From Nitrospiraceae bacterium (GTDB lineage Bacteria; Nitrospirota; Nitrospiria; Nitrospirales; Nitrospiraceae), in assembly GCA_013140715.1 (NCBI GenBank), contig JABFSG010000077.1:1-41148 (forward strand): a stretch of 41,148 nt of DNA. Reading direction: 5' to 3'. The translations under genes and the position numbers were made by a program. The notes below the pieces were generated by a model, which was given only the letters and a program-made list of their open reading frames with translations, was not told the DNA's origin and made no database searches. Positions within the stretch are counted from its first letter, which is position 1, and every line of letters starts with the position of its first letter. Shown here piece after piece: positions 18,719 through 40,513 of this stretch.

Positions 18719-20848
18719 TTACAAGCCTTCAAATCGATAGCTCAGGCCACCGTAGATTGCGATGCCCGGAGCCGGCATCACGAAACGCTCAACGGCACCC
18801 CCGCCCGTCACTGTATTTTGCGCTATGATGCCGGAAGTATAATAGCGCTGATCCATCATATTGTTGGCCATTACGAATCCGCTCAGATGCCCGCCGGGAA
18901 CAGGCTGCTCATACGCAATTCGGCTATTGAGAGTAAAATAGCCGGGAATGCGCGGTTGCGCGTTTTCTTCATCGCCCGTATGAAACTGTGTGCCCACATA
19001 GATCCCCATCAGTGAGATGGTCCACCCAGACGCAGGATGAAAATTCCCCGTGACACTCAATCGATTCTTCGGAACAAGAGGGATACTGTCACCCTTCTTA
19101 ACGTGCTCCAGAAATGGCACTGAGAATGGAACGCCTGGCACAAAGTATGGATTCAGGACCAGATCAGTCTGAAACGTCGCTTGGGTGTAGGTATAATTCA
19201 CCATTCCATCAAAATACTGGTTGAATTTTGTTTTAAGAGTGGCTTCAATTCCCTGACGCCTGGACTCTGGGATATTCTGGTTCGCCGGAGAACCAGAGTT
19301 ACAAGTGCTGGGATCCCCACAAACGAGATAAATTTCATCCCGCACGTCGGCACGGAACAGGGCCATGCTCACCTCGCCCCAGGTTTGAATTTGCACCTTC
19401 GCGCCCACCTCGTAATTGTGCGATCTCATAGGCCTGAGGTTTGGATTACCCTGTCCAAATGGACCGAGACCGGATCCAAACAGCTCGTTATAGGTCGGCA
19501 CACGAAATCCCTGCCCATAACTGAAGTACAGGCTCGCACCCGGGGCAACTAGATAAGTTAATCCTGCACGAGGGGTTGTTCGATGAAAGGCTTTTGAGCC
19601 GTTATTGGTCACATCAAGATTGTCGATGAAATCTAGGTCGTTGCGATCGTACCGAACCCCACCGGTTACAATCAGCTGCGACGTCAGATTCAATGTGTCT
19701 TGGGCATACAGCCCGAGAATTGTCTCGTCCGTCGACCGTAGAGAAGAAGATGTCCCAAAGGGAAAGAGGGCTAGACTTCGATTCCCAAAATCGTTCCTGG
19801 TGTATTCACTTCCCAAGACAAGGGCATTGGAATAACCGAGGACTTGCCCATTATGGTTCAGCTGGAATACCCCCCCCTTTGATTCGGTCATTATATTGTT
19901 GGTGCCTCTCCCGCTCTGAAACACTGTGAACTGTTCTTGCGCCAGACGGCGGTAGAATCCGTTGGCGTTCACAGAAAACCCGAGAGGAAATTCATGCCGG
20001 GCATTCAATCGCACAACGTTTGTCTCGGAATCGTAAAAATCGCCGGGCGTGAAATTGCGCTTAGGGTCGACCGCGGCTTGGCTGAGAGGAAGGGTGCCGG
20101 CCTGCTGCAGCCGATCTTTGACATAGGTATAGGATACGGTAATGTCCGTATGCTCAGTTGGGCGATAACCGAGCTTGCCGAAAAACCGTGAAATGCGCGC
20201 GGCAGATTCGTCTCGAAAACCCGATTCTGTTTCTCGGCTGAAATTGCTGTAGTAATCGAATTTACCTATCGGCCCGCTCGCATTGAGGGTGTAGCGTTCC
20301 CGGTGGAAGCTGCCGAATAGGGTCCCACCCGTTGCCTGATGTTTATCTGTGCCACGTTTCGTGATGATATTGATTACCCCTCCCATGGCATTCTTGCCAT
20401 ATATCGCAGCGGCTCCCGGGATAATCTCGATCCGGTCGATCGTTTCATACGGGATAAGGTCGAAGTTGACGGTATTGAAATCCGGTTCGTTCATCCGCTG
20501 ACCATCCACGAAAACCGTCGTATTCGGAACCGGCTGCCCATTGAAGCCTCGAAGATCGATCGTCTGCTGAAAGGCATTGCCGATACCGTCGTACATCACG
20601 ATGCCCGTTGCCCGTTCTATGGCTTCTTGTACCGTCTTGGCACCAGATTTTCGGATGTCTTCTTTCGTGATGACGGTCACTTTTGCCGGAAGGGTTCTGG
20701 CATCGACAGGAGCATCAGGAAGGCGGGTGCTGGAAACGACGACTTCCCGCGTCTCAATCACATCCTCTGACTGAGCATGGGTGGTGGAGGCAGCAAGGCA
20801 GGATAACAGGACAACACAAGCAGAGAAACCCGTAAGATGGATATGCAC
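18719..20848 (-). CDS. btuB: TonB-dependent outer-membrane receptor, probably for cobalamin/corrinoids
   Basis: 709 aa. Signal peptide to about A25 (STTHAQ), TonB-box-like EVVVSS, plug domain at about 50-165 (GFNGQPVPNTTVFVDGQRM, then IEIIPGAAAIYGKNAMGGVINI) and a 22-strand-type barrel to the C-terminus (GLSYRFEGL). The substrate assignment comes from context: an adenosylcobalamin riboswitch ends 40 nt upstream, and cobQ and the adenosyltransferase follow in the same operon. AAGGGAGG precedes the ATG at 20848 and lies in a hairpin that could hide it. The last residue is Leu rather than the usual Phe/Trp. Confidence 0.9.
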   Translation of the reverse strand: MHIHLTGFSACVVLLSCLAASTTHAQSEDVIETREVVVSSTRLPDAPVDARTLPAKVTVITKEDIRKSGAKTVQEAIERATGIVMYDGIGNAFQQTIDLRGFNGQPVPNTTVFVDGQRMNEPDFNTVNFDLIPYETIDRIEIIPGAAAIYGKNAMGGVINIITKRGTDKHQATGGTLFGSFHRERYTLNASGPIGKFDYYSNFSRETESGFRDESAARISRFFGKLGYRPTEHTDITVSYTYVKDRLQQAGTLPLSQAAVDPKRNFTPGDFYDSETNVVRLNARHEFPLGFSVNANGFYRRLAQEQFTVFQSGRGTNNIMTESKGGVFQLNHNGQVLGYSNALVLGSEYTRNDFGNRSLALFPFGTSSSLRSTDETILGLYAQDTLNLTSQLIVTGGVRYDRNDLDFIDNLDVTNNGSKAFHRTTPRAGLTYLVAPGASLYFSYGQGFRVPTYNELFGSGLGPFGQGNPNLRPMRSHNYEVGAKVQIQTWGEVSMALFRADVRDEIYLVCGDPSTCNSGSPANQNIPESRRQGIEATLKTKFNQYFDGMVNYTYTQATFQTDLVLNPYFVPGVPFSVPFLEHVKKGDSIPLVPKNRLSVTGNFHPASGWTISLMGIYVGTQFHTGDEENAQPRIPGYFTLNSRIAYEQPVPGGHLSGFVMANNMMDQRYYTSGIIAQNTVTGGGAVERFVMPAPGIAIYGGLSYRFEGL

Positions 20849-20873: not shown

Positions 20874-20887
20874 TCCAGTCGAAAGCT

Positions 20888-21115
20888 CCGTCGGATGGGT
20901 CTCCTGACTTGCGGCTCGTCGTTCCCCTGCGCCTTCCCATCTGGAGACGTAAATCGTGAATCACTATTCGTTAATCGAAAAGATCTGCTCTTGCGATTAA
21001 CGGTTCACGAACAACGTTTAACGTCTGCAATGACAGTGGCTCTTGTGCAGGATCACTCCCCGCTTACAGTGGCGGCACCGTGATGGATTTGCACCATCTT
21101 CCCCGTCCCCGACGG
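20888..21115 (-). ncRNA. Adenosylcobalamin riboswitch upstream of the TonB receptor operon
   Basis: Read on the minus strand the conserved B12-box elements appear in order: GGGGAAGATGGTGCAAATCC, GCCGCCACTGTAAGCGGGGA, GCCACTG, GGGAAGGCGC, and AAGTCAGGAGACC. The closing helix pairs CCGTCGG (21115-21109) with CCGACGG (20894-20888). The peripheral arm between GCCACTG and GGGAAGG is enlarged by an 80-nt palindromic element. It should repress uptake and synthesis genes when adenosylcobalamin is high. Confidence 0.95.
20946..21025. repeat. 80-nt palindromic element inside riboswitch 1
   Basis: Two 32-nt arms (GACGTAAATCG... and ...GTTTAACGTC) flank a 16-nt centre containing AGATCT. The outer GACGT and inner 9 bp CGTTAATCG pair perfectly, and the middle is imperfect (22/32 complementary). 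The same element, 71/80 identical, sits at 24384-24463 inside the second riboswitch. Confidence 0.85.
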
Positions 21116-21207
21116 TGTATTGACTCGAACAACCTATCTCCCCGGTTAAACAGCACCCCCTGGAACCAATAGGCGGCTCTGGTGCAAAAGCTCGCCCATG
21201 CTAAAAC

Positions 21208-22107
21208 TCATAGCATCCCGGACACAGCAACGGTCTGATGACAATCCTGGCCAGGCAAGGAGACACGCGGCAGCCCCGTCTCCGGATGTACGTCAACCAG
21301 AACCCGGCAGCCATAGACCTCATTCAACACTTGAGGATGAATCACCTCCTGAGGAGAACCGATGCAGACTAGAGCCCCCTGTTTCATGAGCAATATACGA
21401 TCACAGTATTGGCTGGCCAGATTGATGTCGTGAGAAACGAACAACACCGTCATCTCCAATTGAGCGTGAATACGTTTGAGAATCCGGCATACATCGAGCT
21501 GATGGTTGAGATCGAGATGCGCGGTCGGTTCATCGAGCATCAGCACGCGAGGCGCCTGGGCCAAGGCGCGCGCGAGCAACACTCGCTGTCTCTCTCCCGC
21601 TGACAGCGTATCGATCATCCGATGGGCCAGATGCGTAACATCCGTCTGGGCCATAGCCTCTTGTGCTACGGCAAGATCTTCTTGCTGCTCCCACCCGACA
21701 AGATTCCACAGCCCGCTTCGGCGATGAGGAAACCGCCCCATCAACACCATGTCCAACACGGAAAATGGAAAGTCATACGAGAGATCCTGCGGCATATAGG
21801 CCGCCTGCCTGGCGATCGACTCACGCGACAATGTCTCAAGCTCAACCCCAAAGAGACGTATCACTCCATTTTCAGGCCGCACGAGCCTCATCAGCAGCTT
21901 CAGCAAGGAGCTTTTCCCGGACCCGTTGGGCCCAATCACGCCGACAATTTCGCCCTGCTGGACGGTGAACTCCATTCCATTGATGGCCCAAGATGAACGG
22001 TTGCCGGACTGACTGCCCCGGACAGAATCGTACCGAAACGCTATCTGCCGCACCTCGATGGCCGGCAGAGGAGAAGGCCCAATGTTCTCTGATATTTGTT
22101 CGCTCAT
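21208..22107 (-). CDS. btuD: Cobalamin ABC transporter ATP-binding protein
   Basis: 299 aa from the ATG at 22107, which overlaps the permease stop codon as ATGA. A longer frame exists upstream but lies inside the permease gene. Walker A is GPNGSGKSS, the signature is LSAGERQRVLLARAL, Walker B is VLMLDEPTAHLD and the switch His is in FVSHDI; all are intact. It is an FecE/BtuD-type ATPase of the metal-chelate/B12 importer class, powering BtuC in the inner membrane. The assignment to B12 rests on the upstream riboswitch and the btuF and btuC partners. The C-terminal ~40 residues (VDVHPETGLPRVSLPG) extend past the core. Confidence 0.95.
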   Translation of the reverse strand: MSEQISENIGPSPLPAIEVRQIAFRYDSVRGSQSGNRSSWAINGMEFTVQQGEIVGVIGPNGSGKSSLLKLLMRLVRPENGVIRLFGVELETLSRESIARQAAYMPQDLSYDFPFSVLDMVLMGRFPHRRSGLWNLVGWEQQEDLAVAQEAMAQTDVTHLAHRMIDTLSAGERQRVLLARALAQAPRVLMLDEPTAHLDLNHQLDVCRILKRIHAQLEMTVLFVSHDINLASQYCDRILLMKQGALVCIGSPQEVIHPQVLNEVYGCRVLVDVHPETGLPRVSLPGQDCHQTVAVSGML

Positions 22108-23225
22108 GCGAAAAACCGATACTTTCGAGTCATCAAGAGATAGATGAAAAACGGTCCGCCGATCAATGCCGTAATGACGCCGACTGGAATCTCTGCCGGA
22201 GCGACGACTGTACGAGCAACCGTGTCCGCAACCATGAGCAGTATCCCCCCACCCAACGCGGAAACCGGTAACAGAAGCCGGTGATCCGCCCCGCACAAGA
22301 TCCGCACAAGATGCGGAACGACCATGCCGACGAAGCCGATCATGCCGCTGACCGACACAATGGCCCCCGTCAGCACAGCTGACACGAGGAACACAGTCCG
22401 TTGTACTCGATCCGAGTCGACCCCTGAAGAACGAGCCGCGTCCTCCCCCACCGCAAGAAGGTTCAAAGCCTGGCTTTCACGAAGGAGAAGGACAACAGCG
22501 ATCAGCAAGCAACCGCCAATCCCGATCAGTGCCGTGAGGCTCGGTGCAGTGAGGGTCCCCATCAGCCACAGGACAACCCGATAAAGAGAAGTCGGGTTCA
22601 AGATGGATGTCGCAAACATCATGAGCGCCGAACAGATAGCGTTCACAATCACTCCTGCGAGCAACAACTTGTGCATCGGAAGCTGCCCTTGCGAGGCGGC
22701 AATCCTATAGACCAGCGCGATCGAGAGACCGCCTCCGATAAAGGCGCACAACGGCAACCCGAGCCCGCCAACCATAGAGCCAATCCCGATGGCAAACCCG
22801 ATCGTCGCTCCAAATGCGGCTCCACTTGAAATACCCAGCACGTAGGGATCTGCCAGCGGGTTACGCACGAGAGCTTGTAGCGCAGCTCCTGTGATCGCCA
22901 ACGATGCTCCCACAAATAGGCCCATCAGGACCCGCGGAAACCGGATATCCCAGACGATGATGCCTGCCACGTCCTCTCCCCCAGCCGTGGAGAATGTCAG
23001 GGCAGACCACAACTCTGCCATGGTCAGCGTATGAGCTCCGAACTGAAGACAGAGCGCGATAACCCCGCAGGTCAGAAGAACCATAGATCCCATCACCCCA
23101 TACCACCGGCGAGCGCGCAGGGCCTGCCACGATGCGATGCCTTTATAGATCGGCAACGGAGCAGGCGAGGCTATCGCCGGTTGATCCGACAGGTTGGTCT
23201 GGGATGGAGAGGGATGGACGATCAT
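22104..23225 (-). CDS. btuC: Cobalamin ABC transporter permease
   Basis: 373 aa from the ATG at 23225, overlapping the btuF stop codon as ATGA. It is an FecCD/BtuC-type permease with about ten transmembrane helices. Family motifs are ITGAALQALVRNPLADPYVL, GISSGAAFGATIGFAIG, LLAGVIVNAICSA and GFVGMVVPHLVRILCGADHR. The N-terminal ~45 residues before the first helix (rich in Ser and Pro) are an unusual cytoplasmic extension. It forms a homodimer with two BtuD subunits. Confidence 0.95.
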   Translation of the reverse strand: MIVHPSPSQTNLSDQPAIASPAPLPIYKGIASWQALRARRWYGVMGSMVLLTCGVIALCLQFGAHTLTMAELWSALTFSTAGGEDVAGIIVWDIRFPRVLMGLFVGASLAITGAALQALVRNPLADPYVLGISSGAAFGATIGFAIGIGSMVGGLGLPLCAFIGGGLSIALVYRIAASQGQLPMHKLLLAGVIVNAICSALMMFATSILNPTSLYRVVLWLMGTLTAPSLTALIGIGGCLLIAVVLLLRESQALNLLAVGEDAARSSGVDSDRVQRTVFLVSAVLTGAIVSVSGMIGFVGMVVPHLVRILCGADHRLLLPVSALGGGILLMVADTVARTVVAPAEIPVGVITALIGGPFFIYLLMTRKYRFFA

Positions 23226-24232
23226 GGATTCTTTATGGGAAACGGTCCCGTCAACACCTCGGGATGAATGGCCTTCGCGAGAAGTTCGAGTCCATCCACG
23301 ATCCTCGGCCCCGGCCGGTCGACTAACACACTGGGCACGAGGACCAGACGATTGTGTTTGACCGCCGACAGGTTCGACCACCGCCGCCACTGCTGCTGAT
23401 CTTCATCGGGAATACCTTCTGCTGTACCGACTGGAAAGATAATAAGTTCCGGATCGCGGGCCAGTACCTCCTCCAGCGCGAACCTTGGATAGGGTATCGT
23501 CGTGTCCGCTGCGATATTGACGCCGCCCGCTGCTTCGATCAGTTGATGAATAAAACTCCCAGGCCCTACCGTTTGTAGCGGGTCTGTATTCAATACATAG
23601 AGGACGCGTGGACGGCTCAATGATTGTGTACGCTCCTTAACGACCGCAATACGTTGCCGAATGGTTGCGGCCAACTCGTCCCCTGCCTTGCTCCGATCAA
23701 ACAACCGGGCAATCGTTTGAATCTGCCCAAGCACATCGTCAAGCTGTGCGGTTTGCAACACGAAGGTGGGAATCTTGACCCGATCGAGCTGTTGGAGAAG
23801 ATCCGGCTGGATAAAGTCCTGTGGCACCAAGACCAGGTCCGGCTTGAGGGCCAGAATTTGCTCGATGCTCGGATTCATCCCTCCCAAGTGTGTCTTGCGC
23901 TGCGCTTCGAAAGGATAGTCGCAGAATGGCGTTACTGCCACGACCTTCTCTTCAAGACCGAGCGCGAAGAGTATCTCCGTGACGTTCGGCGCCATCGACA
24001 CCACTCGGCTTGGGGCCTTTGCAAGAAAGAGCTTTCTCCCCAATGCATCCACAAATGTCCGTGGTGCAACGTGCGCCATAAAGGGCATGCCGGTCAAAAT
24101 TCCCTGTTGTCGTCGCTTCATATTATCCATCTCATCGTCAGGAGTAGCCGGCGCCGACCACAACACGAGCAGCACGACGGCGCTGAGCACACAACCAACC
24201 ACTCGGCTTGTATGAAATACGTCGGAGCCCAA
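23222..24232 (-). CDS. btuF: Periplasmic cobalamin-binding protein
   Basis: Up to 336 aa. An N-terminal hydrophobic signal (VVGCVLSAVVLLVLWSAPA) is followed by a BtuF/FecB-type fold: RVVSMAPNVTEILFALGL, VAVTPFCDYPFEA, LGGMNPSIEQILALKPDLVL, and GGVNIAADTTIPYPRFALEE. It captures corrinoid in the periplasm and delivers it to BtuC. The start is uncertain: TTG at 24232 abuts the T-run of the riboswitch terminator and lacks a Shine-Dalgarno. GTG at 24202 would remove ten residues and still leave the signal peptide. Confidence 0.92.
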   Translation of the reverse strand: MGSDVFHTSRVVGCVLSAVVLLVLWSAPATPDDEMDNMKRRQQGILTGMPFMAHVAPRTFVDALGRKLFLAKAPSRVVSMAPNVTEILFALGLEEKVVAVTPFCDYPFEAQRKTHLGGMNPSIEQILALKPDLVLVPQDFIQPDLLQQLDRVKIPTFVLQTAQLDDVLGQIQTIARLFDRSKAGDELAATIRQRIAVVKERTQSLSRPRVLYVLNTDPLQTVGPGSFIHQLIEAAGGVNIAADTTIPYPRFALEEVLARDPELIIFPVGTAEGIPDEDQQQWRRWSNLSAVKHNRLVLVPSVLVDRPGPRIVDGLELLAKAIHPEVLTGPFPIKNP

Positions 24233-24233
24233 T

Positions 24234-24268
24234 AAAAAATCCCCAAGGCCTGGACAGACCCTGAGGAT
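24234..24268 (-). terminator. Intrinsic terminator of riboswitch 2 expression platform
   Basis: In RNA sense AUCCUCAGG (24268-24260) pairs with CCUUGGGGAU (24248-24239) with one bulge across an 11-nt loop, followed directly by a run of T at 24239-24234. It lies between the riboswitch and btuF, so ligand-dependent termination is the likely control mode. Confidence 0.75.
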
Positions 24269-24325
24269 TGCACCCGCAACTCATCCTCGCCGACTCCCCA
24301 GCCCACGAGGGAATCTTGGGCAATT

Positions 24326-24549
24326 CTCCTGGCAGGTCTTCTGGCTCATGGTTCACCCTACTCCCCGCACCTTCCCATCTGGAGACGTGAATCGTAAATC
24401 GTTATTCGTTAATCGAGGAGATCTACTCTTGCGATTAACGGTTCACGAATGACGTTTAACGTCCCAAAGACAGTGGCATTCACGGGTTTCGTCCCCATTT
24501 ACAGCGGCGGGACCGCGAGGGACTCGCACCCTCTTCCCTTACCCAGGAG
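24326..24549 (-). ncRNA. Adenosylcobalamin riboswitch upstream of btuFCD
   Basis: On the minus strand: AAGGGAAGAGGGTGCGAGTC, CCGCCGCTGTAAATGGGGAC, GCCACTG, GGGAAGG and GAGCCAGAAGACCTGCC in B12-riboswitch order. CTCCTGG (24549-24543) pairs with CCAGGAG (24332-24326) as the closing helix. It carries the same 80-nt element as riboswitch 1 in the same arm. Confidence 0.95.
24384..24463. repeat. 80-nt palindromic element inside riboswitch 2
   Basis: Second copy of the element at 20946-21025; 71 of 80 positions are identical and the length is unchanged. Arms of 32 nt are 25/32 complementary, more than in copy 1, around a 16-nt centre with AGATCT. Both copies are flanked by CTTCCCATCTGGA on one side and GACAGTGGC on the other. 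Confidence 0.85.
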
Positions 24550-24565
24550 TCACAATGTGGGGGGC

Positions 24566-24595
24566 ACTCTAGGAGACCGGGAAGCGGGTTGTCAA
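24566..24595 (-). promoter_or_regulatory. Sigma-70 promoter for riboswitch 2 and btuFCD
   Basis: TTGACA at 24595-24590, an 18-nt spacer, then TAGAGT at 24571-24566. The -35 is a perfect match and the -10 matches 4 of 6. The predicted transcript start is about 10 nt before the riboswitch closing helix. Confidence 0.65.
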
Positions 24596-24798
24596 GTTCA
24601 TTAATGTCCGACTTTCCATCCCCTGCGCAAGTGTGGACAGGAACCTGTCAAAACCCATCGGAAACAGAGTGAAAGACTGATGTTTTTCACAACAGCCCAC
24701 GGCATGGGCTTTGCTCAGCTCTGGGGGATGACGTCCGGGCCTCGGACAGAGTCTCAGATGAATGACCGACCCCAGTTACGACGGTTCCAGTCATATCT

Positions 24799-38932: not shown

Positions 38933-38938
38933 AAACTC

Positions 38939-38966
38939 AGTGATCCGTGACGAGTGATCCGTGACG
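38939..38966. repeat. Tandem 14-nt direct repeat
   Basis: Two exact copies of AGTGATCCGTGACG lie end to end just upstream of the WbqC-like gene, in the 84-nt gap after the PHP gene. The words GTGA and GTGACG recall the other short repeats in this window. Confidence 0.6.
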
Positions 38967-39016
38967 AGGATCGACCTGCAAAAATTCCTTTTGATGCCCT
39001 AACCCCCTCGCATCAC

Positions 39017-40513
39017 TCATGACCGATCGCCCATCACTCCCCTCACAAAAATCGGATTGCTCAACAGCTCGCCGCTGCCTGTGATCTCCACGCGATAGGT
39101 CATGGGCTCGTCCATCGACGCAGTGGTATCCGGCCAGTCGACGCGAAACGGTGTCTCTCCCGAAAACTGAGCCAGCACCTCGCCGGAGCGAATCACCCGC
39201 ACCTTCACGGGATGGCGGCCGCGATCGTTCGCCGTGACGGACAGCTGGACCGTAAGATCGTTCGCGCCGGCTGGATCCAGTCTATCTCCGATCGAAGCCG
39301 ACTTGGCTCCAGCCTGACAGGCTACTCGAAACTCATCCAGTCGCAGTTGGACATGATGGTCTCCCTCTCCCACCGCATAGGCCTGACCTGATCGGAGTGC
39401 CTCCAGAACACCGGCGACTGTCCGTTCTTTCACCCATAATACCGTCACAAGACGGTGGAGGTCCTTACCGGCATCCCGTAATCCATGAAATGCTAGCTCA
39501 CCGATAAGCACCGGAGGCGAGCTCCGCTGGCTAGTAGGCAAGTTCAACAACCGGTCCCACAATTCTCCAGGCTTGATGTTTGTTCGCCCATCCTGATAGA
39601 GCCCACCAAATCCTGTATATCCCGTCGTCATCAGCAACGCCTCAGCATGAGGCTCCGTCTTAACGGTGACCGTTCCTAAGGGCCAGACCGCATGTTCTTG
39701 AAAGTCCCTCGCTTCCGTCATCGACCAAAACACAAGCCCACCTTTCCCTCTTACATCATCGATGAGGGCCTGATAGGGACGATATCCCAGCTGGTCATCG
39801 TACGAACTAAATGCCGGCTGACTCAGGGGCCAGGCATTTGCCACCAGCATCACCGCCAAAACGATCAGGACACAGGAAACAGACCGTCGTAGCGAGCGTC
39901 GATCGGAGGCGTACCGGCGTTGCCTCCACAGCAAGAGGGCCGGAATAAACAATAAGATAGGTGCCCCATTGACCGCCCCGCGCCAATCAAATGTATAGGA
40001 CCCAGGATTCCCGCTGACAGGAAGAGATCGATAGTCCTCCGGCTTGGTCAAGCCGAGCACCAGCAGATTGCGTTGGGCATTGTGCATCGTCAAATTGCGT
40101 CCTACTAACGAACCGGTCCAATAGTAATAGGGAGCGACTTCAACGCCAGGGAGGATGATCAGCTTCGGATGGCGGCCTTGCACCTCCGCGATCTCTTCCA
40201 CATAGCGATCGATCCCATACTCCAATACAGATGGGAAACGAACTTGCCGTTTCAAAAGACCAGTCAAAGGCCAGAATCCGTACTCATAACGGAGAGAGAA
40301 ATTGTCGGTCAGAATCAGCACATCCAGACCAAGCTGTTCTGCCCGTTCGGCCAGCGCCTCAATGGTCAATTCACCTGTGCTGGCAGTGCTATGAACGTGC
40401 ACCGAGGTCAACAACTGCTGCCGATCGTCCGACGCTTCTGCATGCGCGACAAAGCCCGACAGACACAAGGCCCCGATCATCGCTGTCAGTATCAGTCTTC
40501 GCGTTCTTCTCAT
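39017..40513 (-). CDS. PHP-family (CehA/McbA-like) exported protein with internal membrane segments
   Basis: 498 aa from the ATG at 40513, four nt after the upstream gene's stop; GGAAGCGAAG lies upstream, and a longer GTG-started frame overlaps that gene. A signal peptide (LILTAMIGALCLSGFVAHAE) is followed by a PHP-like domain: SVHVHS (37-42), GLDVLILTDNF, PGVEVAP. Canonical TDH is TDN, the GHxN motif and the AHP motif are not recognisable (GGLVFWSMTEA), so metal binding is doubtful. Two hydrophobic stretches near 184-196 and 212-230 interrupt the domain. The C-terminal ~110 residues resemble a beta domain (VQLSVTANDRGRHPVKVRVI). Function unknown. Confidence 0.8.
   Translation of the reverse strand: MRRTRRLILTAMIGALCLSGFVAHAEASDDRQQLLTSVHVHSTASTGELTIEALAERAEQLGLDVLILTDNFSLRYEYGFWPLTGLLKRQVRFPSVLEYGIDRYVEEIAEVQGRHPKLIILPGVEVAPYYYWTGSLVGRNLTMHNAQRNLLVLGLTKPEDYRSLPVSGNPGSYTFDWRGAVNGAPILLFIPALLLWRQRRYASDRRSLRRSVSCVLIVLAVMLVANAWPLSQPAFSSYDDQLGYRPYQALIDDVRGKGGLVFWSMTEARDFQEHAVWPLGTVTVKTEPHAEALLMTTGYTGFGGLYQDGRTNIKPGELWDRLLNLPTSQRSSPPVLIGELAFHGLRDAGKDLHRLVTVLWVKERTVAGVLEALRSGQAYAVGEGDHHVQLRLDEFRVACQAGAKSASIGDRLDPAGANDLTVQLSVTANDRGRHPVKVRVIRSGEVLAQFSGETPFRVDWPDTTASMDEPMTYRVEITGSGELLSNPIFVRGVMGDRS

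Follow-up and report, generated by a model that had tools for sequence, protein, structure and literature searches.

In a Nitrospiraceae genome, the outward hairpin tip of two cobalamin riboswitches probably serves as a tolerant landing pad: dispersed heptad palindromes settle there and then pass between the riboswitches. One arm of a regulatory RNA would lose and regain repeat palindromes again and again, and be exchanged by conversion, while the aptamers stay distinct. The window analysed here, 41,148 nucleotides in length, is one entire contig (C64) of a genome of 3.58 Mb, the close relatives of which are Nitrospira MAGs.

Two cobalamin riboswitches and the genes behind them

Both riboswitches lie on the reverse strand, ahead of B12 transport genes. 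The first, here called F (24314–24596), is the leader of a btuF-btuC-btuD operon and matches the complete RF00174 model (positions 1–189) at 93.0 bits; the second, B (20877–21143), is the leader of a btuB-like TonB receptor gene and also matches positions 1–189, at 79.8 bits. Since both scores exceed the gathering score of 31.5 and both matches include the B12 box, F and B are by their sequence RF00174 cobalamin riboswitches, predicted to bind B12 and to regulate the genes that follow. Behind F, on the same strand, are genes for a btuF-like periplasmic binding protein (23222–24130; PF01497, E 3e-36), a btuC-like permease (22104–23225; PF01032 FecCD, E 2.9e-90) and a btuD-like ABC ATPase (21208–22113; PF00005, E 2.5e-32); behind B is the gene for a btuB-like TonB-dependent receptor (18719–20848, reverse strand; PF00593, E 4.8e-63, and PF07715, E 6e-24). 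That these genes transport cobalamin is deduced from the riboswitches.

When F and B are compared with one another, the 5′ core is 55% identical, the 3′ core 42% and the flanks about 20%, whereas the whole arm is 87% identical. Each riboswitch has its own orthologues across species, with core identities of 95–100%; against those of the related locus L098, for example, the 5′ core of F is 100% identical and the core of B 95%. F and B would thus be old paralogues at most.

The RF00174 searches also brought out other unusual riboswitches. In the window's own genome, a divergent match to RF00174 that scores below gathering (L013, G000:C100:94852-95057) may be a third cobalamin riboswitch, whether degraded or odd; it has counterparts at G003:C6:33881, G017:C22:3168 (96 bits, well above gathering) and G009:C26:30613. 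Two cobalamin riboswitches in tandem (L017/L042, G029:C6:88646-88836 and 89059-89260) share a strand and are separated by about 220 nt, seemingly within a single leader. The btuF riboswitch of L098 (G003:C89:120312-120594) has an aptamer identical to those of its relatives and diverges abruptly downstream of the B12 box, so that its expression platform seems to have been replaced.

Position, sequence and predicted fold of the arm

The arm comprises 94 nt in F (24377–24470) and 95 nt in B (20939–21033), both on the reverse strand, and is bounded exactly by GCCACTG (24471–24477 and 21034–21040, respectively) and GGGAAGG. Within it, the 80-mers at 24384–24463 and 20946–21025 are identical at 71 of 80 positions (89%) with no gap (E 1.4e-23), and extension of the alignment with the GGGAAGG flank gives 90% identity over 94 nt (E 2.5e-31). 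In the Rfam alignment the 80-mers fall within an insert of 86–88 nt, at the terminal loop of a long peripheral extension. The claim of the original prediction, that the same 80-nt element fills the same arm of both B12 riboswitches and is more alike than the aptamer around it, is thus borne out.

Each strand of the arm is a run of tandem heptads in an inverted array, CGTNNNN on one side and ACGNNNN on the other (5′ CGTTAAA CGTCATT CGTGAAC CGTTAAT CG ... CGATTA ACGAATA ACGATTT ACGATTC ACGTC 3′), and the period of 7 is clear in both F (0.57) and B (0.51). Among 13 arms of this CGT type, CGT on the 5′ strand and ACG on the 3′ strand come back at intervals of 7 nt and are near-invariant, while the 4-nt spacers vary; in the RNAalifold consensus the triplets are paired and the outer spacers form internal loops. 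Covariation over the arm alignment, a check that the prediction had proposed, found two-sided (compensatory) change in 1 of 23 consensus pairs and was carried no further because the paired triplets hardly vary; it neither proves nor disproves selection for the stem.

Folded singly, the arms form long imperfect hairpins, as had been foreseen, with energies of −25.2 kcal/mol for F (z −3.9) and −23.1 kcal/mol for B (z −2.6). The energy of arm B is the weakest predicted among 37 long arms from the genus, as expected of a hybrid stem with strands of different origin. The predicted pairing of arm bases is 0.69 internal and 0.03 with the rest of the riboswitch, and the arm is accordingly modelled as a self-contained hairpin at the tip.

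Length and heptad kind across the genus

A search of 32 genomes of the genus with RF00174 gave 67 matches, 59 of them with a readable arm. Arm length is bimodal, with 22 of the 59 at 13–15 nt, 37 at 81–103 nt and none between. Every one of the 37 long arms repeats best at a period of 7, with a mean match of 0.55 compared with about 0.22 at lags 3–6 and 8–13, and the 25 strict inverted heptad arrays found in the riboswitches all lie in arms. The heptads themselves are of several kinds: in the genus and its relatives the arms carry CGTKAAN (the type in the window), CGTAAAA, GTGAYSN, TCAGCNN or GTCAAYN, and the arms of L145 have a looser GACGC type of heptad.

Short and long arms interchange often. 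On a tree of BtuC proteins, which may differ from the species tree, at least nine changes are required for F and at least eight for B, a count that gives no direction. Sister species can be quite unlike, with both arms long in L112 and both short in L113, and both short in L129 and both long in L130; such species, with and without the module, form natural sets that make the effect of peripheral length on B12 sensing testable. Across 15 pairs, identity is 80% in the arm, 95–96% in the core and 60–74% in the flanks, so that the arm evolves faster than the core and nearer to the rate of the flanks. For the B riboswitches of L130 and L143 the cores are 96–100% identical and the arms 67%, which suggests an arm replaced while the aptamer stayed. 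The F arms of L101 and L102 differ in length by 7 nt. Many long and short arms have common TC..GAT ends, and no target-site duplication could be recognised by eye.

Arm lengths in F and B tend to agree within a genome (20 both long, 9 both short, 5 discordant; Fisher p 2e-4), but with phylogeny taken into account this agreement is not significant (3.3 pairs against 0.1, a number too small).

In the phylum as a whole, the RF00174 matches inspected have mostly minimal arms, although they were ranked by score, which favours short arms. The arm is neither a recent insertion, as had been proposed, since orthologous btuF arms are 96–99% identical in three other species, nor the standard conserved extension of most Nitrospirota riboswitches that would have spoken against insertion.

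Members of other families of the phylum (L276 in G062, L286 in G039) have a different palindrome in the same arm, of the kind CCCTCTCCC...GGGAGAGGG, of 66–68 nt and without a clear 7-nt period. This suggests that the tip accepts other palindromes too.

Heptad arrays dispersed through the genomes

Searched through the whole genome, the 80-mer of the window has two copies, both in the B12 riboswitches, and the best match elsewhere is 70% identical; it is the class of array that is scattered. The suggestion of a mobile palindrome at a length-tolerant site is upheld for this class, by the dispersed arrays, their turnover and the minimal arms of 22 riboswitches, but fails for the exact 80-mer, which is not dispersed. 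The 70% relative (L003 1501-1586, G000:C29:12929-13014) begins right where the preceding gene ends, at its stop codon, in a gap apparently between ispD and ispF, genes named by eye from their reading frames. Dispersed arrays of the arm's kind are 70–79% alike.

A sequence-independent scan of 441 kb of the window's own genome found about a dozen inverted heptad arrays of 60–114 nt, of several heptad kinds and mostly in short gaps just 3′ of stop codons. The resulting density, some 27 per Mb, is rough, since under the relaxed thresholds lags of 5 and 9 also yield many matches, and the sample (about 400–441 kb) is partly biased in that the window, L196 and L197 were known in advance to hold matches. 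A strict scan of 726 kb around btu loci gave 43 arrays at period 7, mostly the arms themselves, compared with 0–4 at periods of 5, 6, 8, 9 and 10. At 38936–39034, in a short gap between two genes, the window holds a second and weaker inverted heptad array, whose unit is of the GTGATSN kind.

Among the 32 genomes, dispersed copies number 2–169 per genome for the pattern CGTKAANCGTKAANCG and 0–78 for GTGATSNGTGATSNGTGA, with reversed-pattern controls near 0. A dispersed heptad is commoner where the arms use the same kind, with medians per Mb of 19.7 against 7.4 (p 4e-5) and 15.0 against 1.4 (p 8e-5); the genomes being related to one another, these p values are only indicative. The contents of the ispD-ispF gap vary between species (CGTKAAN, GGTTCGA, GTCAAYN or GCGGGAC-like arrays, and no array in six), and between L311 (G003) and L196 900-2600 (own genome) the array behind a gene differs, in these two close species, by 91 and 21 nt, or 13 and 3 heptads. 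These comparisons show array sites turning over between species, with changes of length by whole heptads. No Rfam RNA lies under the dispersed arrays at 40 loci around them; only tRNAs and one 5_ureB_sRNA match (L071 1689-1981, beside an array at about 1501) were found nearby.

Probable exchange of the arm between riboswitches

The F arms of four species, that of the window included, are 95–99% alike, and the F arm therefore predates these species. Between the window and L098 it is 99% identical, as conserved as the aptamer, and the upstream flank is 91% identical. The B arm of the window, in contrast, is 85–88% like the F arms, compared with 79% and 75% for its own orthologues in L098 and L104. 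Across its loop and 3′ strand it agrees with F at 7 of 8 diagnostic substitutions and at one indel, whereas a B-like base survives at the 5′ end. In the arm tree it falls among F arms (support 95/96), and a clade of btuB arms is rejected (p 0.020) by an AU test that used 94 columns and was decided on after the alignment had been seen. The core tree, on the other hand, places B of the window among B cores (100/100), with F and B separate.

Because the two trees disagree for B of the window, we infer an ectopic gene conversion from F to B in the window's lineage, limited to the arm. The F-like tract, the loop and 3′ strand, would be at least about 58 nt long (20939–20996, reverse strand). The proposed duplication of one riboswitch, coupled with gene conversion, is therefore half right: the trees argue for conversion, of the arm alone, and the separate orthologues and dissimilar cores argue against duplication.

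The same exchange appears to have taken place elsewhere. In L145 (G222) the F and B arms are 95% alike and the next best match in the genome is 76% and partial; in L109 they are 86% alike and the cores 64–66%. One specific array recurs in four B riboswitches and one F riboswitch with 89–98% identity, and the next full-length match in those genomes is 76%.

Origin and role of the arm

How does one arm come to hold such different palindromes? We suggest that it caps the long peripheral (P6) extension as a terminal hairpin, with a basic state of 13–15 nt, and that in many Nitrospira this basic hairpin has been replaced by one of the short palindromes resident in the genome, inverted arrays of 7-nt units. 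Replacement would be possible because extra length at an outward tip spares the ligand pocket. Arrays would then lengthen or shorten by whole heptads, as examples show, presumably by slippage. An array in one riboswitch could be copied to its sister by ectopic gene conversion, presumably helped by short sequences common to both around the arm, and conversion of this kind would homogenise the arms of a cell's two switches; in the lineage of the window, sequence from the btuF arm would have replaced that of the btuB arm across the loop and 3′ strand. Insertion itself we can only infer, because neither a mobilising enzyme nor a target-site duplication nor an empty-site junction came to light.

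The chief competitor is local growth, in which slippage and template switching enlarge the existing hairpin, with no part for a dispersed element. Changes of length by whole heptads, the existence of arms of one riboswitch family without a close dispersed copy, and the growth by repeat copy number described for Nostoc P6b (PMC3488679) all speak for this, but two observations speak against it: which heptad an arm carries follows the kind dispersed in that genome, and no arm lengths fall between 15 and 81 nt. The rather unlikely status that we give it contrasts with that of a recent duplication of one riboswitch from the other, arm included, which we regard as almost certainly wrong. The identity of the arms at 71 of 80 positions is what such an event would give; cores only 42–55% alike, flanks about 20% alike and a core tree that splits F from B at 100/100, with separate orthologues for each, contradict it. 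A standard extension, inherited vertically since the Nitrospirota ancestor, is highly improbable as well, for although the F arms of four species are so alike, it is contradicted at genus level by the 22 minimal arms and the unlike heptads of the others, and the inspected riboswitches of the phylum, in a ranking that favours short arms, point the same way.

Could the arm instead be a functional module under positive selection, with heptad RNA that binds a protein or second RNA, or a stem that alters pausing or co-transcriptional folding, to the profit of both riboswitches? The tendency of F and B arms to match in length, the high occupancy, the near-invariant CGT and ACG triplets and the 99% identity of the F arm to that of L098 would all fit. 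Several unrelated heptads, however, occupy the same arm and 22 of 59 riboswitches do without, the arm diverges much more than the core, the matching of F and B loses significance once phylogeny is respected, and a single consensus pair has compensatory change, so that we consider such selection quite unlikely; the protein or RNA binding mentioned in the original prediction stays a candidate that found no support in this analysis. On the landing-pad model the hairpin most probably rides along as a passenger, either without effect or of slight use as an insulated stem. Against this, conservation of the F arm like that of the aptamer, between the window and L098, could mean constraint, and the occupancy of 37 in 59 is far above that of average noncoding DNA, an excess that tolerance alone does not explain. 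The tip might be a true hotspot, with preferential acquisition, conversion limited to the arm, and retention for folding or factor binding, making the dispersed repeat family an exchangeable module of a regulatory RNA, but this stronger version we think unlikely.

Comparison with known systems

Inverted heptad arrays are apparently an abundant and undescribed class in Nitrospira; in the open-access literature we found no report of heptad arrays in a riboswitch or of such Nitrospira palindromes. STRR heptads are found in cyanobacterial RNase P RNA. Like REP/BIME elements, the arrays are short palindromes placed right 3′ of stop codons, many per genome. REP/BIME elements have many near-identical dispersed copies, whereas here the own genome has two and then a 70% match, and the Nitrospira units are period-7 arrays of varying heptads with copies 70–79% alike. 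What does characterise the arms is a period of 7 in both strands of the hairpin (37 of 37) and the presence of dispersed members elsewhere in the genome.

Dispersed arrays of paired heptads have a parallel in Geobacter metallireducens, where tandem 7–8-nt repeats on opposite strands, mostly paired, form classes 1–3, class 3 being heptads, and are proposed to be DNA sites for IHF/HU binding and global regulators (PMC2700814). The Geobacter heptads are, however, unrelated to those of Nitrospira, and none is reported inside a riboswitch. TAACTGA heptamers, abundant between genes in Beggiatoaceae, cyanobacteria and Bacteroidetes, differ in being direct rather than inverted tandem repeats, and are proposed to be translational control sites (PMC4679880).

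The closest described case comes from the tRNA-Leu(UAA) group I intron of Nostoc: its variable peripheral stem, P6b, contains degenerate heptanucleotide repeats that base-pair as a hairpin, with classes of different heptads and a length that varies by repeat copies and indels (PMC3488679). The likeness to the Nitrospira arm lies in hairpin strands of period 7 at the variable periphery of a structured RNA. The Nostoc RNA is, however, a cyanobacterial group I intron rather than a riboswitch; it has no paralogous partner with which the arm is exchanged, and no correlation with dispersed copies is described in the text consulted. The peripheral elements of cobalamin riboswitches are themselves known to vary (PMC11260477). 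With complete aptamers and a B12 box, the Nitrospira riboswitches resemble other RF00174 members that have the P6/P8-P12 extension; those with long arms differ in their terminal hairpin, which is a repeat palindrome of 81–103 nt in place of about 14 nt.
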